DNA from: Bifidobacteriaceae bacterium
Lineage (GTDB): Bacteria > Actinomycetota > Actinomycetes > Actinomycetales > Bifidobacteriaceae
Direction of reading: 5' to 3'
Length of the DNA stretch: 46,658 nucleotides
Assembly (NCBI GenBank): GCA_022649925.1
Contig: JALCOX010000006.1
Span: forward strand, 1-46,658
Shown: positions 20,428 to 24,995 of the stretch, piece after piece
Numbering within the stretch: the stretch's first letter is position 1
Layout: each line of letters begins with the position of its first letter
Program-made: the position numbers and the translations under genes
The notes under the pieces: model-generated
What the model saw: the letters and a program-made list of their open reading frames with translations, nothing else
The model's database searches: none
What the model was told of the DNA's origin: nothing

Positions 20428-21690
20428 TTAAGCGTACCCGTCATTCGTGAGCTTGTAGCAAAAGGCATCGGTCTCGTCACTTTCTCGTATTCCCAACAGC
20501 TCGCACCACTGCTCGAGCGAGCGTCCATAGGGGCGGGCCTGGGCACCGTTAGCCTGTATGTCGGCCTTGGCGGCGAGCACATCAACCTCCCTCACACCAC
20601 CGAGAAGGTGCTGCAGTCGGTCAAGCTGTGCGTCGTCGCAGAACAGTGATTCGACGATCTCCATGAGCCTGCGCACCCGATCGATGGGCAGCGAATCCCA
20701 ATGTCTGAACTCCAGGAATTGCTTGAGTCGCACGTCGTTGAAATGGGTGGAGAGAATATGCGCCATCTCGTAGTCGTTGAGCGCCCGATCCGGATATATG
20801 TCCGCGGCGTTTTCATGCCACACCGTGAAGACCTTCTCGCGGCCCTCGTGCTCCGGGGTTCCTCCCATGTCCGCGACCATCAGCGGAGTCGACAGCATGT
20901 TGACGGCGTAGTCTTCCCACCCGAATCCATCGCTGAACAGACCCGGCGTGAGCCCCGTGCGCTGCGGGTCCGTGCGCTCCCACATCTCCTGGCGCATCAG
21001 CGGCAACGGCGAGGGGCCGGACTCGAAATACGGAGAGTTACGGAAAAACCAGCCGAGCAGCGGGCCAGCTGCCGACCCTAGCCGCATCTTTCGCACGGAG
21101 TCCGCCTCGCTGCTGAAGTCGATGCTCACCTGCGTCGACGCCGAGCAGCGCATCATGAGCAGTCCGTAGCTGCCCACCGTGCCAAAATACTCGTCGAGCA
21201 CTCGGTAACGCCCCGTGGGCAGTATCCGCACATCCGAATGCGGCGTGCGCGGCTGATATCCGTAGGGGACGAGATCAAAATTGAGCTCGGTGAGGATCGG
21301 GTCGGCGAGCGTGCGAAACTGAGCGTACAGCTCCTCCGCCTCCGCCGGCGACTTTACGGGGCCCAGCGCGGTTTCCACTTGCGCGCCCGGCTCGGTCGAC
21401 ACGTCGATTTTGCCACGGCGCAGACCGAGCAGGTGACCGTTCTCCCACGTCTCTTCCTCTGGCTCGAATCTGGGCCGGAGTGCCCGGAGAAAATCTTCCA
21501 CCCCGTTCTCGGAATACAGATCGACCGCCGCTCCCGTTCCATTGCGGATGGGAAGATGCTCGATTTCGACCCCGAAGACATACTCGCTGCGAGGCACGGC
21601 CCCGCGTGCGATGTAGGAGACGAGGCTGCGCACATGCTCGTCGTTGACCGTGGCGCCCATATGGGCGTAATGCTTGCGTCCATATCTCAT
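20428..21690 (-). CDS. Glutamate-cysteine ligase family protein (GCS2 type, EgtA-like)
   Basis: This protein belongs to the ATP-grasp-like carboxylate-amine ligase family that joins glutamate to cysteine. It has about 420 residues. Segments typical of the family are FGVEIEHLP near residue 40, a glycine/acidic region (KIDVSTEPGAQVETALGP), MRCSASTQVSIDFSS and GPLLGWFFRNSP. The start is uncertain: ATG 21690 is used here, ATG 21660 is also possible, and neither has a strong ribosome site. It is followed by the class II amidotransferase gene and the two probably form one transcript. The product could be gamma-glutamylcysteine for glutathione, ergothioneine or a related thiol; the sequence alone does not decide. 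Confidence 0.9.
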   Translation of the reverse strand: MRYGRKHYAHMGATVNDEHVRSLVSYIARGAVPRSEYVFGVEIEHLPIRNGTGAAVDLYSENGVEDFLRALRPRFEPEEETWENGHLLGLRRGKIDVSTEPGAQVETALGPVKSPAEAEELYAQFRTLADPILTELNFDLVPYGYQPRTPHSDVRILPTGRYRVLDEYFGTVGSYGLLMMRCSASTQVSIDFSSEADSVRKMRLGSAAGPLLGWFFRNSPYFESGPSPLPLMRQEMWERTDPQRTGLTPGLFSDGFGWEDYAVNMLSTPLMVADMGGTPEHEGREKVFTVWHENAADIYPDRALNDYEMAHILSTHFNDVRLKQFLEFRHWDSLPIDRVRRLMEIVESLFCDDAQLDRLQHLLGGVREVDVLAAKADIQANGAQARPYGRSLEQWCELLGIRESDETDAFCYKLTNDGYA

Positions 21691-21802
21691 ATTCCGAGCG
21701 TATCGGGAGAGTTTGGCGCAACACCCCCAGCCCGGCAAGGCAGAAGGTTATCCGAAGGAGATCCGAGGCCTTCTCTCAGTCCGTTTCCAGGCTGCGGAAT
21801 CG

Positions 21803-21835
21803 GTCACCCCGTCACCGCTGCGTCGGTGGGGTGAC
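21803..21835 (-). terminator. Hairpin downstream of kup
   Basis: GTCACCCC (21803-21810) and CACCG (21813-21817) pair with CGGTG and GGGTGAC within 21824-21835, leaving a 2-base bulge. It begins just past the kup stop on the minus strand but has no T-run, so it may only slow or stabilise the transcript. Confidence 0.5.
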
Positions 21836-21840
21836 GCTGA

Positions 21841-24800
21841 CTACTTCTTCGGCGCGGTCTCCTTCGCGGGGCGCTCATTCGCTGATCGCGCGGGGGATGC
21901 AGCCGCCGCAGCCGAGGCGCGCGGCGCTGACTTCTTGTGCGCAGCATGCGACGTCGTCTTGGCGGACTTCGCAGGAGACTTCACTGCGGTAGTCTTCGCT
22001 GCGGGAGACTTCACAGCCGCCGTCCCGCTCGATGCAGTGGACTTCTTCGAAACCGCCGCCTTCTTCGCAGTATTGGCTTTCCGTACGGCCGGCGTCTTCT
22101 TCGGGGCAGACGCCGCCACCGACGACGTCTTGGCAGACTTCACTGTTTTTGCAGCCTTTGCGGACGTGGTCTTCGCACCCGTGGCCTTCGCGGATCGCGT
22201 GGCGGCCTTGCGCCCGCTCGTCGACGTGGTGCGCCGGCGAACGCGCTTCACCGCAACAGCGGTCGCGGAGCTCGCTGCGGCCGACGACGTCTTGCGATCG
22301 GTCTCAACCCTGTCAGACTTGTCGGATGCGCTCGAGGCGCGCTCCTTACCCGCATCTGCCTTCGGAGCCTTTGTGGCCTTCGTGGACCTGGCCTTTTCGG
22401 TCTTAGATTTTTCGGACTTGGCCTTCTCAGTCTTCTCGGCGTCCTGCTCTTCTTTCGCTGCCTGCTCTTCAGCGGCCTCCGCCAAAATCGCCTGCAACGT
22501 GATGGGCTTCTTGACCTTGCGCAAAGCGGTGCGCTTCAACGGCGGCACCGCCACCGTCGACACGAAGAGCGGCAGCACCTCAACGAGCGGGTTGTACGCG
22601 GACAGACCGAACCACTTGACCGGCGAGCCTGCCACGTGACGAATCGCGTACTTCACGCGCAGCGCCAGGGCACCGCGCGAGGTGATCTTCGACTCGGGAA
22701 TGAGGTTCTTGTGAATCAGCACGTACTTGATGGTGCCGATCTGCTGATCCTCGTCGAGCTTGGGGTAGATGGTGGCCTGCTCTGGCAGCTCGCCCGCCTT
22801 GATGAGATCGTGCATGATCTGGTGCAAGTAGGTGGCGACGTTCTGGTTGATCTTGAACCCGATGCGCAGACGCACACGGAACAGGAAGTCCGTCCCGAAG
22901 TTCTCCACGGAATACTCGCGGGTGAAGGGGTCATCTGTCACCTGGACCGAGACGGCCCACCACGCACGGGCACGCTTGGGGTGATCCGCAAAGATCGAGT
23001 AGAAGATGTCCGTGTCGAGACGGCGCAATTCCGGATCGGGCGTCAGATACACCACGTTGTCGGAACAGTAATCGATGCGATCGTCGCGATGCAGCATGTC
23101 GAGCGCCGGCAGGAACTCCTCGGGAGACATGTGCCGCCTCTGCGAGCGCTCCACCTTCGTTCCCACAGCCCAGGCGTACATAATCCCCAGAATCGCCAGG
23201 GTGAGCGCCATCGTGAACCAGCCACCGTGGAAGAACTTCGTGAGCGAAGCCAACAGGAACAGTATCTGAATGGCGAGGAACACCACCGTGAAGACGATGG
23301 CGAGGAACTTCTTCTTCGAGGCCCACCAAATATAGGCGGCGAGAAGCACCGTGGTGGTGATCATGGTGATGGTGAGCGCCAGGCCATACGCGGCCGAAAT
23401 ATGTTCGGAGTCCTTGAAGAGGAAGAGTACCGCCAGCGTGGCCACACAGAGCACGACGTTGATGGCCGGAATGTAAAGCTGACCGCGCGTGCGGGCAGGG
23501 TAACGCACCTGGAGATGGGGCATCCAGTTGAGGCCCGTCGCCTCGCTCACCATGGTGAAAGCGCCGGTGATGAGGGCCTGCGACGCGATGACGCCCGCAG
23601 CAACCGACAGCACAACGGCGACGGTACGAATGTTGGGATCCATCATCTGGAAGAACGGGTTGAGATTGCTGATCTTCTGGACGTTGGGGTTGGTATTGTT
23701 CGCCAGGATCCAGGCACCCTGACCGAAATAACAGAGCACTAGGGCGATCTTGATGAAGGGCCAGGTGACATAGATGTTGCCGCGGCCCACATGCCCCATG
23801 TCCGAATACAGCGCCTCCGCACCTGTGGTGGAGAGGAAGACGGTGCCCATGATCGCCAAACCGGCCTTGTTTCCGGGTGCCACCAGGAACTCGAGACCGT
23901 AGACGGGGTTGAGCGCCTCGAAGACGGACCAGTCGTTTGACAGGTTGAGGATGCCGGTGACCGCCAGGAAGGCGAACCACACCATCACCACGGTTCCGAA
24001 GACCTTGCCGATGCGCTCGGTTCCGCGCGACTGTACGGCGAAGAGGACCACGATGATGACGGCGGTGATGATGAGCGTGAGGTTCGTGTTGTTCTCGAAC
24101 ACGGACTCGAACGCAGGAATTGTCTTGAGGCCCTCGACTGCGGAAGAAATCGAGACTGCGGGGGTCAGGACAGAATCCGCCAGGAACGCCGCGCCTCCCA
24201 GCATGGCCGCGATGGCGAGCCACTTGCCGTACCGGCGCACCAGAGTGTAGAGCGCAAAGATGCCGCCCTCACCCTTGTTGTCGATGCGCATGGCGATGAG
24301 CACGTACTTGACGGTCGTGATGAGCGTCACCGACCAGAACAGCAGCGAGAGCATGCCCAGAACCGCCGGACGGTCGGCATACTGAATGCCACCCTGACCG
24401 GAGATGAAAGATTGGATGGTGTAGAGGGGTGAAGTGCCGATATCGCCGTACACGACGCCGAGGGCCACGATCGACATTCCCAGGGAGACCTTGTCGCGTG
24501 ACATCTGGAGCTTGCGCCACCACCGACCCAAGGGGGTACGAGCCGGTTTGCTCTGAAGCTTTGCGGCCTTCTTCGCTTCGCGACGGGCCTCTTCCTCTGC
24601 CTCACGCTCCTCGGCCGAGATCGCGTGCTTGTCGATCTTCGGAGCGTTAGTGATGGTTCCCTTAGGAACAATATTTCCCGTGTCTTCGATGCTTTCGAGC
24701 CTCATGGTCTCTTCCGCATCGGCGGCACGCTTCAAACTTCGGCTAGTGTCCTTGTCTGCCTCCGCGTCTGCCGACGCAGTCGTGTCTGTGGACTTTTCAG

Positions 24801-24864
24801 ACTCCTGCGTGACCTGAGCATCTACCTTCGCGCGCTTACGCGCACGTCCGCCATGCTGTGCCAT
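21841..24864 (-). CDS. kup: KUP-family potassium transporter with histone-H1-like C-terminal tail
   Basis: This is a high-affinity K+/H+ symporter in the cytoplasmic membrane. At 1007 residues it is far longer than the usual 620-670. The transporter core starts near residue 125, with the hallmark GVVYGDIGTSPLYT at 136-149, about twelve helices to around 575, and then the cytoplasmic domain to about 798. The first 120 residues are a charged, Ala/Glu/Lys-rich extension. The last 209 residues (799-1007; bases 21841-22470) are almost only Lys, Ala, Ser, Thr, Arg and Pro, with SPAK, SPKK-like and KKTP motifs as in histone H1 tails. The frame runs through without a break, so this is not a sequencing fusion artefact at first sight. 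ATG 24864 has a GGAGG site 6 bases upstream and is preferred over ATG 24876. Monocistronic. Confidence 0.96.
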   Translation of the reverse strand: MAQHGGRARKRAKVDAQVTQESEKSTDTTASADAEADKDTSRSLKRAADAEETMRLESIEDTGNIVPKGTITNAPKIDKHAISAEEREAEEEARREAKKAAKLQSKPARTPLGRWWRKLQMSRDKVSLGMSIVALGVVYGDIGTSPLYTIQSFISGQGGIQYADRPAVLGMLSLLFWSVTLITTVKYVLIAMRIDNKGEGGIFALYTLVRRYGKWLAIAAMLGGAAFLADSVLTPAVSISSAVEGLKTIPAFESVFENNTNLTLIITAVIIVVLFAVQSRGTERIGKVFGTVVMVWFAFLAVTGILNLSNDWSVFEALNPVYGLEFLVAPGNKAGLAIMGTVFLSTTGAEALYSDMGHVGRGNIYVTWPFIKIALVLCYFGQGAWILANNTNPNVQKISNLNPFFQMMDPNIRTVAVVLSVAAGVIASQALITGAFTMVSEATGLNWMPHLQVRYPARTRGQLYIPAINVVLCVATLAVLFLFKDSEHISAAYGLALTITMITTTVLLAAYIWWASKKKFLAIVFTVVFLAIQILFLLASLTKFFHGGWFTMALTLAILGIMYAWAVGTKVERSQRRHMSPEEFLPALDMLHRDDRIDYCSDNVVYLTPDPELRRLDTDIFYSIFADHPKRARAWWAVSVQVTDDPFTREYSVENFGTDFLFRVRLRIGFKINQNVATYLHQIMHDLIKAGELPEQATIYPKLDEDQQIGTIKYVLIHKNLIPESKITSRGALALRVKYAIRHVAGSPVKWFGLSAYNPLVEVLPLFVSTVAVPPLKRTALRKVKKPITLQAILAEAAEEQAAKEEQDAEKTEKAKSEKSKTEKARSTKATKAPKADAGKERASSASDKSDRVETDRKTSSAAASSATAVAVKRVRRRTTSTSGRKAATRSAKATGAKTTSAKAAKTVKSAKTSSVAASAPKKTPAVRKANTAKKAAVSKKSTASSGTAAVKSPAAKTTAVKSPAKSAKTTSHAAHKKSAPRASAAAAASPARSANERPAKETAPKK

Positions 24865-24995
24865 CGGAACCTCCATTTGCGCTCGACTACCGAGTGCCTC
24901 ACTTCAAACCTTGCACTTTGTACAAACGGTCAGAAGTCTATCCCGTTTGCACCGATAATGATAATCCCGTGAAGAATTGTGGCTCATTTTGTGGC

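Follow-up and report, generated by a model that had tools for sequence, protein, structure and literature searches.

Why does a membrane potassium transporter end in some two hundred residues that recall a histone tail, and does such an ending make the transporter a DNA-binding protein? The question arises from a window of 46,658 nucleotides, the whole stretch of DNA analysed here, which belongs to the draft assembly G000 (1.70 Mb, 77% complete), from a genus of the Bifidobacteriaceae.

The kup gene and the topology of its product

The minus strand of the window encodes, at 21841..24876, a KUP/Kup K+ transporter of 1011 amino acids as one unbroken open reading frame. A Pfam scan placed K_trans (PF02705; E 4.5e-142, 474 bits against a cut-off of 24.8) on residues 135-583 (23128..24474) and K_trans_C (PF22776; E 1.4e-7, 31.8 bits against a cut-off of 24.8) on the cytoplasmic residues 618-760 (22597..23025), while phmmer returned plant potassium transporter 5 as a match. 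The best PDB matches of the structural model in Foldseek were the KimA entries 8b70, 8b71 and 6s3k (E 3.5e-9 to 1.1e-7, probability 1.00, TM-score 0.56-0.59 by target length). Scores against the NCBIfam equivalogs TIGR00794 (357.8 bits) and NF008015 (337.1 bits) stayed below the curated cut-offs of 539.6 and 883, respectively; the protein is a member of the KUP family and lies outside the narrower kup equivalogs as NCBI sets them. Judged by family membership, its core is most probably an ordinary KUP-family K+/H+ symporter.

Hydropathy analysis revealed 12 transmembrane segments, matched by helices of the model, with lysine and arginine richer in the even-numbered loops, and both termini are therefore placed inside. 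In KimA, the solved relative, 12 transmembrane helices are likewise followed by a cytoplasmic C-terminal domain (PMC6994465). Family knowledge and the positive-inside count thus support the statement of the first-pass annotation that KUP C-termini face the cytoplasm, and the tail appears to lie on that side of the membrane. In the AlphaFold model, block pLDDT values of about 75-94 were obtained across most of residues 90-700, and a charged helix at residues 794-829 (22390..22497; block pLDDT 87-92 for about residues 790-820) joins the folded domain to the tail. Residues 832-1011 are predicted to be disordered (pLDDT about 30-40), save for a short helix at 874-882. Kup is commonly viewed as a transporter core with a compact cytoplasmic domain; here, the tail begins past the usual end of the KUP fold, no PDB chain resembling it was found at an E of 1 or below, and our literature search returned no described Kup tail.

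The N-terminus is extended as well. Residues 1-128 (24493..24876) form a mostly disordered cytoplasmic extension, with pLDDT below 50 for residues 1-77, in which the alignment of the three available congeners revealed the conserved stretch AEETMRLESIEDTGNIVPKGTITNAPKI. Within the extension, residues 52-92 (window 24600-24720) contain a stretch of the pattern E[EA]TMR[LI]..I[EQ]DTG.I.PKG..N..KI, which is kept between genera and suggests a second cytoplasmic linear motif.

The C-terminal tail in the genus and in the family

The C-terminal basic tail (21841..22470, minus strand) covers precisely residues 803-1011 together with the stop codon. Its 209 residues include 38 Lys, 14 Arg, 5 Asp and 12 Glu, giving a net charge of +35 or +0.17 per residue, and the combined fraction of Lys, Ala, Ser, Thr, Pro and Arg (KASTPR) amounts to 0.82, with lysine at 18%. 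The earlier description of the tail as consisting almost only of these six residues holds for the distal two thirds (residues 873-1011; KASTPR 0.85-0.88, only 2 acidic residues), whereas the tail start fits it less well. Codon usage resembles that of the transporter, with AAG serving for 34 of the 38 lysines and a third-position GC content of 0.74 compared to 0.81 in the core, and both congeners, the independent MAGs G163 and G164, carry an in-frame counterpart. As the frame is unbroken in three genomes and codon use fits the transporter, frameshift, misassembly and a wrong strand were rejected; the continuity with the transporter frame up to a normal stop, as first annotated, was thereby confirmed, and the 209-residue basic tail is real. 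A plus-strand frame of 321 amino acids (21674-22639) is no more than the tail's mirror image. Copying from another genomic site was likewise rejected, as genome searches with the tail and with its conserved island (see below) returned only kup itself, one extra match to the tail query (E 0.05) containing two stops and being taken as chance.

The tail contains short tandem repeats (15-bp unit, 2.7 copies) and is the most KASTPR-rich 80-residue stretch in 447 kb of its own genome. The next-richest stretches in this sample, found in an unknown TM-like protein, ParB, Ffh and a glycosyltransferase, are all weaker, and a genome-wide habit of H1-like tails was rejected on these grounds. The second most KASTPR-rich protein of the sampled genome, a 364-residue product of L192:6595-7686, lacks any Pfam match and combines a single TM segment with a basic K/S/T/Y/P-rich repeat end (SYSTPKKSYTAPKK-type).

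Measured from the end of the common helix QAILAEAAEEQ, the tails of G000, G163 and G164 span 206, 234 and 231 residues with net charges of +37, +27 and +38. Aligning relatives thus gave a mixed outcome for the initial view of the tail, in that all three congeners are tailed with no sign of a frameshift, but outside the genus most relatives are without this tail or end in another kind. The tail was defined as the sequence past PLFV/PLFL, and three mis-anchored g15 rows were excluded; across the roughly 148 Kup proteins of the family with a correct anchor, tail length varies from 11 to 267 residues (at least 100 in 56) and tail charge from -13 to +41, often switching within one genus. A charge of at least +25 was observed in five, namely the three congeners and the bee-type Bifidobacterium G101 and G107 (= ESL0763). 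Elsewhere in Bifidobacteriaceae the Kup C-terminus is hypervariable: the tail is missing, acidic or mixed, and a single additional lineage has a long basic one. On the core tree, the basic-tailed proteins do not form one group; supported branches split them into two and require 2 changes, and for this reason the long basic tail appears to be a genus trait here that was gained independently in the G101/G107 lineage. All 14 Kup proteins examined from the order's other families stop at the canonical last strand of the domain (..RTVVMGAxxxL) and carry no tail. Since the family tolerates loss of the arm as well as acidic and mixed versions, the arm is unneeded for K+ transport in general.

Further features of the family were recorded alongside. 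The loci L041/L042 of G101 and G107 combine their long basic K/A/S/T tail with a similar K/A-rich N-terminal extension. Several Bifidobacterium genomes (G095-G106) contain a tandem pair of Kup genes (e.g. G098:C1:289152-294097), the copies of which differ in their C-tails, TGEQT[TK]V[ML]PR being present in one type only. In the otherwise variable Bifidobacterium tails, a motif E-x-T-x-V-[ML]-x-[RK] (e.g. DTGEQTTVLPRPD, DGETTVVMQRI) recurs at L124, L126, L128, L143, L148, L150, L056, L057 and L149. The 'ETTVVM' of these sister tails was considered as a remnant of the canonical end 'RTVVMG' and rejected, because the canonical end appears, as judged by eye, to match 'NPLVEVQPLFV' before the tail. 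E-x-T-x-V-[ML] is similar to ETTS, a kinase site in actinobacterial GarA (PMC12321487), and the motif could let a Ser/Thr kinase or an FHA domain dock on a K+ transporter.

Constraint on the tail and its possible roles

Outside one island, tail identity among the three congeners is about 31-48% as compared to 88-95% in the core. For G000 and G164, the core yielded a Ks of 0.77-0.79 and a Ka/Ks of 0.05-0.06, and the tail Ka of 0.58 comes close to the core Ks of about 0.78, so that the tail appears near-neutral at the residue level outside the island. Residue-level conservation is confined to two short Ser/Thr-bearing motifs: RVETDRKTS at residues 856-864 (22285..22311), and the island TAVAVKRVRRRTTS at residues 872-885 (22222..22263). 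In the three-congener pattern, VET[DE]RK[TS]S is followed after 7-8 residues by TA[VI]AVKRVRRR[AT]TS. The island is the best common 14-mer, with 12 of 14 residues identical in all three species where 100 shuffles reach at most 9, and it coincides with the sole helix modelled in the tail. We read the tail as a spacer, disordered and under selection for charge, that bears one specific linear motif.

Whether composition is held against mutation was approached by simulating neutral evolution of the tail DNA (60 runs), with 0.39 substitutions per site in each lineage as given by core synonymous divergence. The observed KASTPR fractions of 0.83 (G000) and 0.86 (G164) exceed the simulated 0.64-0.67 (maximum 0.74), the observed net charges per residue of 0.18 and 0.165 exceed the simulated value of about 0.08 (maximum 0.144), and hydrophobic residues amount to 0.05 and 0.03 compared to 0.12-0.16 in the runs. 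The tail of G163, with a KASTPR fraction of 0.69 and a charge per residue of 0.115, contains more D/E/G and lies near neutral expectation in both respects. Composition and charge are thus kept beyond neutral expectation in two of three species, in a simulation that begins from present-day sequences and leaves out repeat slippage, which could itself hold composition. An alternative, which we regard as somewhat unlikely, is a tolerated low-complexity expansion: the disordered A/K/S/T-rich C-terminus would grow and shrink by slippage and drift, would be constrained only to be 'soluble and not sticky', and would carry its charge without any partner. The wide spread of tail lengths and charges in the family and the switching within genera agree with such an expansion, as do the high tail Ka, the short tandem repeats and the neutral composition of G163. 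It is, however, at odds with the strong conservation of the island in all three species, with a positive charge in G000 and G164 that exceeds every simulated run, and with a tail kept at 206-234 residues throughout the three.

Our preferred reading, to which we assign a probability of roughly 45%, is that the tail is a genus-specific disordered polycationic arm that would tether Kup electrostatically to polyanions in the cytoplasm or to membrane lipids. It is favored because the tail occurs in all three congeners, charge is kept despite divergence, the conserved island carries the predicted helix, and a second, separate basic-tail gain in G101/G107 is joined by a precedent for such chemistry in AlgP; it is weakened by the near-neutral G163, by the free variation of the family at this site and by a simulation blind to slippage. 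Under the tether model, one Bifidobacteriaceae genus would have added an arm of about 200 cytoplasmic residues to the KUP core, in which the conserved basic island (VAVKRVRRR, predicted helix) would provide a specific contact and the long stretch of lysines spaced by A/S/T would form a low-specificity polyanion-binding brush.

We infer polyanion binding by the tail as well as the identity of its partner, the candidates being inner-leaflet anionic lipid, RNA or ribosomes close to the membrane, polyphosphate and DNA. Both congeners (G163 and G164) encode a polyphosphate kinase, and Bifidobacterium strains produce polyphosphate (PMC10329679); for these two reasons, polyphosphate ranks level with DNA as a candidate. 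For a membrane protein, anionic lipid and the RNA close to membrane-bound ribosomes should be at least as reachable, and DNA tethering is possible but unsupported. What makes the arm worth pursuing is that, at a fast-evolving disordered end of the Kup domain, one genus keeps strong basicity and a fixed helix-forming motif. If the arm binds polyanions, it would couple K+ uptake directly and physically to surfaces whose electrostatics respond to K+, namely those of nucleic acid, polyphosphate or the membrane; if it binds none, it would be a clean case of composition alone mimicking a histone tail. The family itself supplies natural tail-less, acidic and basic versions of Kup for comparison.

The two conserved motifs also admit a regulatory role, which we consider improbable. 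VETDRKTS and VKRVRRRTTS would then be putative Ser/Thr kinase or docking sites, the spacer a mere linker, and phosphorylation beside the basic patch would switch Kup or free the tail from the membrane. The restriction of all residue-level conservation to two Ser/Thr-bearing motifs is consistent with such an arm, and so is the GarA ETTS-like E-x-T-x-V-[ML], present in 30 of 90 sister Bifidobacterium Kup tails of 60-299 residues as compared to 0.4 expected by shuffling (PMC12321487). Yet this very motif is absent from the Kup tails of the window's genus, and the long basic part is left unexplained.

Histone likeness and comparison with known systems

SPAK and KKTP had been put forward as H1-type motifs of the tail. 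SPAK, KKTP and SPAA each occur in one copy, and SPAK was found only in this species among the three congeners. The general pattern [ST]P.[KR] is present twice compared to 0.6 in shuffles (P 0.12; 2, 0 and 2 copies in G000, G163 and G164, as compared to 0.4-0.7 shuffled) and [KR][ST]P three times compared to 0.6 (P 0.013); neither is kept in both congeners and no copy of [ST]P.[KR] is positionally conserved, so that the proposed motifs, being near chance or not conserved, do not hold up as H1 signatures. Runs of [KR]{3} are rarer in the tail than in shuffles, the Pfam scan of the whole Kup returned transporter-type domains only and no linker-histone domain, and HU of the congeners is without a comparable tail. 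What survives of the H1 comparison is the broad chemistry, whereas motifs, linker-histone domain, a PDB match to the tail and a high lysine content (only 18% here) do not bear it out; the H1 resemblance is one of bulk chemistry. The tail is a real and mildly surprising observation and is not evidence of a DNA-binding transporter.

The model originally proposed, in which the H1-like tail anchors the nucleoid to the membrane via Kup and couples chromosome organisation to K+ state, is very doubtful, for although the chemistry, the cytoplasmic location and the DNA binding of H1-like tail fragments of AlgP (PMC9239181) speak in its favor, the modest lysine content, the scarcity of [KR]{3} runs, the unconserved SPAK, the missing linker-histone domain and an HU without such a tail speak against it, and the sequence gives DNA no preference over RNA, polyphosphate or lipid. 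We give equally little credence to a broader version, in which the tail of the K+ importer would physically hold either the nucleoid or polyphosphate granules at the membrane, K+ would weaken this binding and so create a local feedback, and the arrangement would have evolved twice on Bifidobacteriaceae Kup.

AlgP of Pseudomonas aeruginosa resembles the present protein in that its N-terminal part, itself unrelated, is extended by a long disordered tail with abundant K, A, P and S/T, and its C-terminus is required for the normal number and spacing of polyphosphate granules (PMC9239181). AlgP is, however, soluble and carries tandem KPAA repeats, whereas the window's tail sits on a membrane transporter and its translation contains no KPAA. 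KPAA-type repeats (AKPAAARPAAAAKAPSKPAAAKPIAVKPAAKAAAK) do occur in the Kup C-tail at L073 (related genus g2, G002), which is nearer to AlgP than the window's tail. The C-terminal domain of eukaryotic H1 and proteins of the chlamydial Hc2 type share the low-complexity basic A/K/S/T/P composition; in contrast to H1, the window's tail has no globular domain, less lysine and no conserved S/TPKK-type motifs. Hc2 also varies in size (PMC2848022), which in its case arises from 36-residue repeat elements that the window's tail does not contain.

With the KUP family, including KimA of Bacillus subtilis (PDB 6s3k/8b70) and the plant HAK5-type transporters, the window's Kup shares PF02705, 12 TM helices and a cytoplasmic C-terminal domain, to which it adds a disordered N-terminal extension of 128 residues and a C-terminal one of about 220 residues past the canonical end. 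Although Kup, unlike the Oxa1/YidC/Alb3 insertases, is not part of protein insertion, it resembles them as a membrane protein with a basic cytoplasmic C-terminal tail, and the basic C-terminal tails of Oxa1/YidC/Alb3 bind ribosomes.
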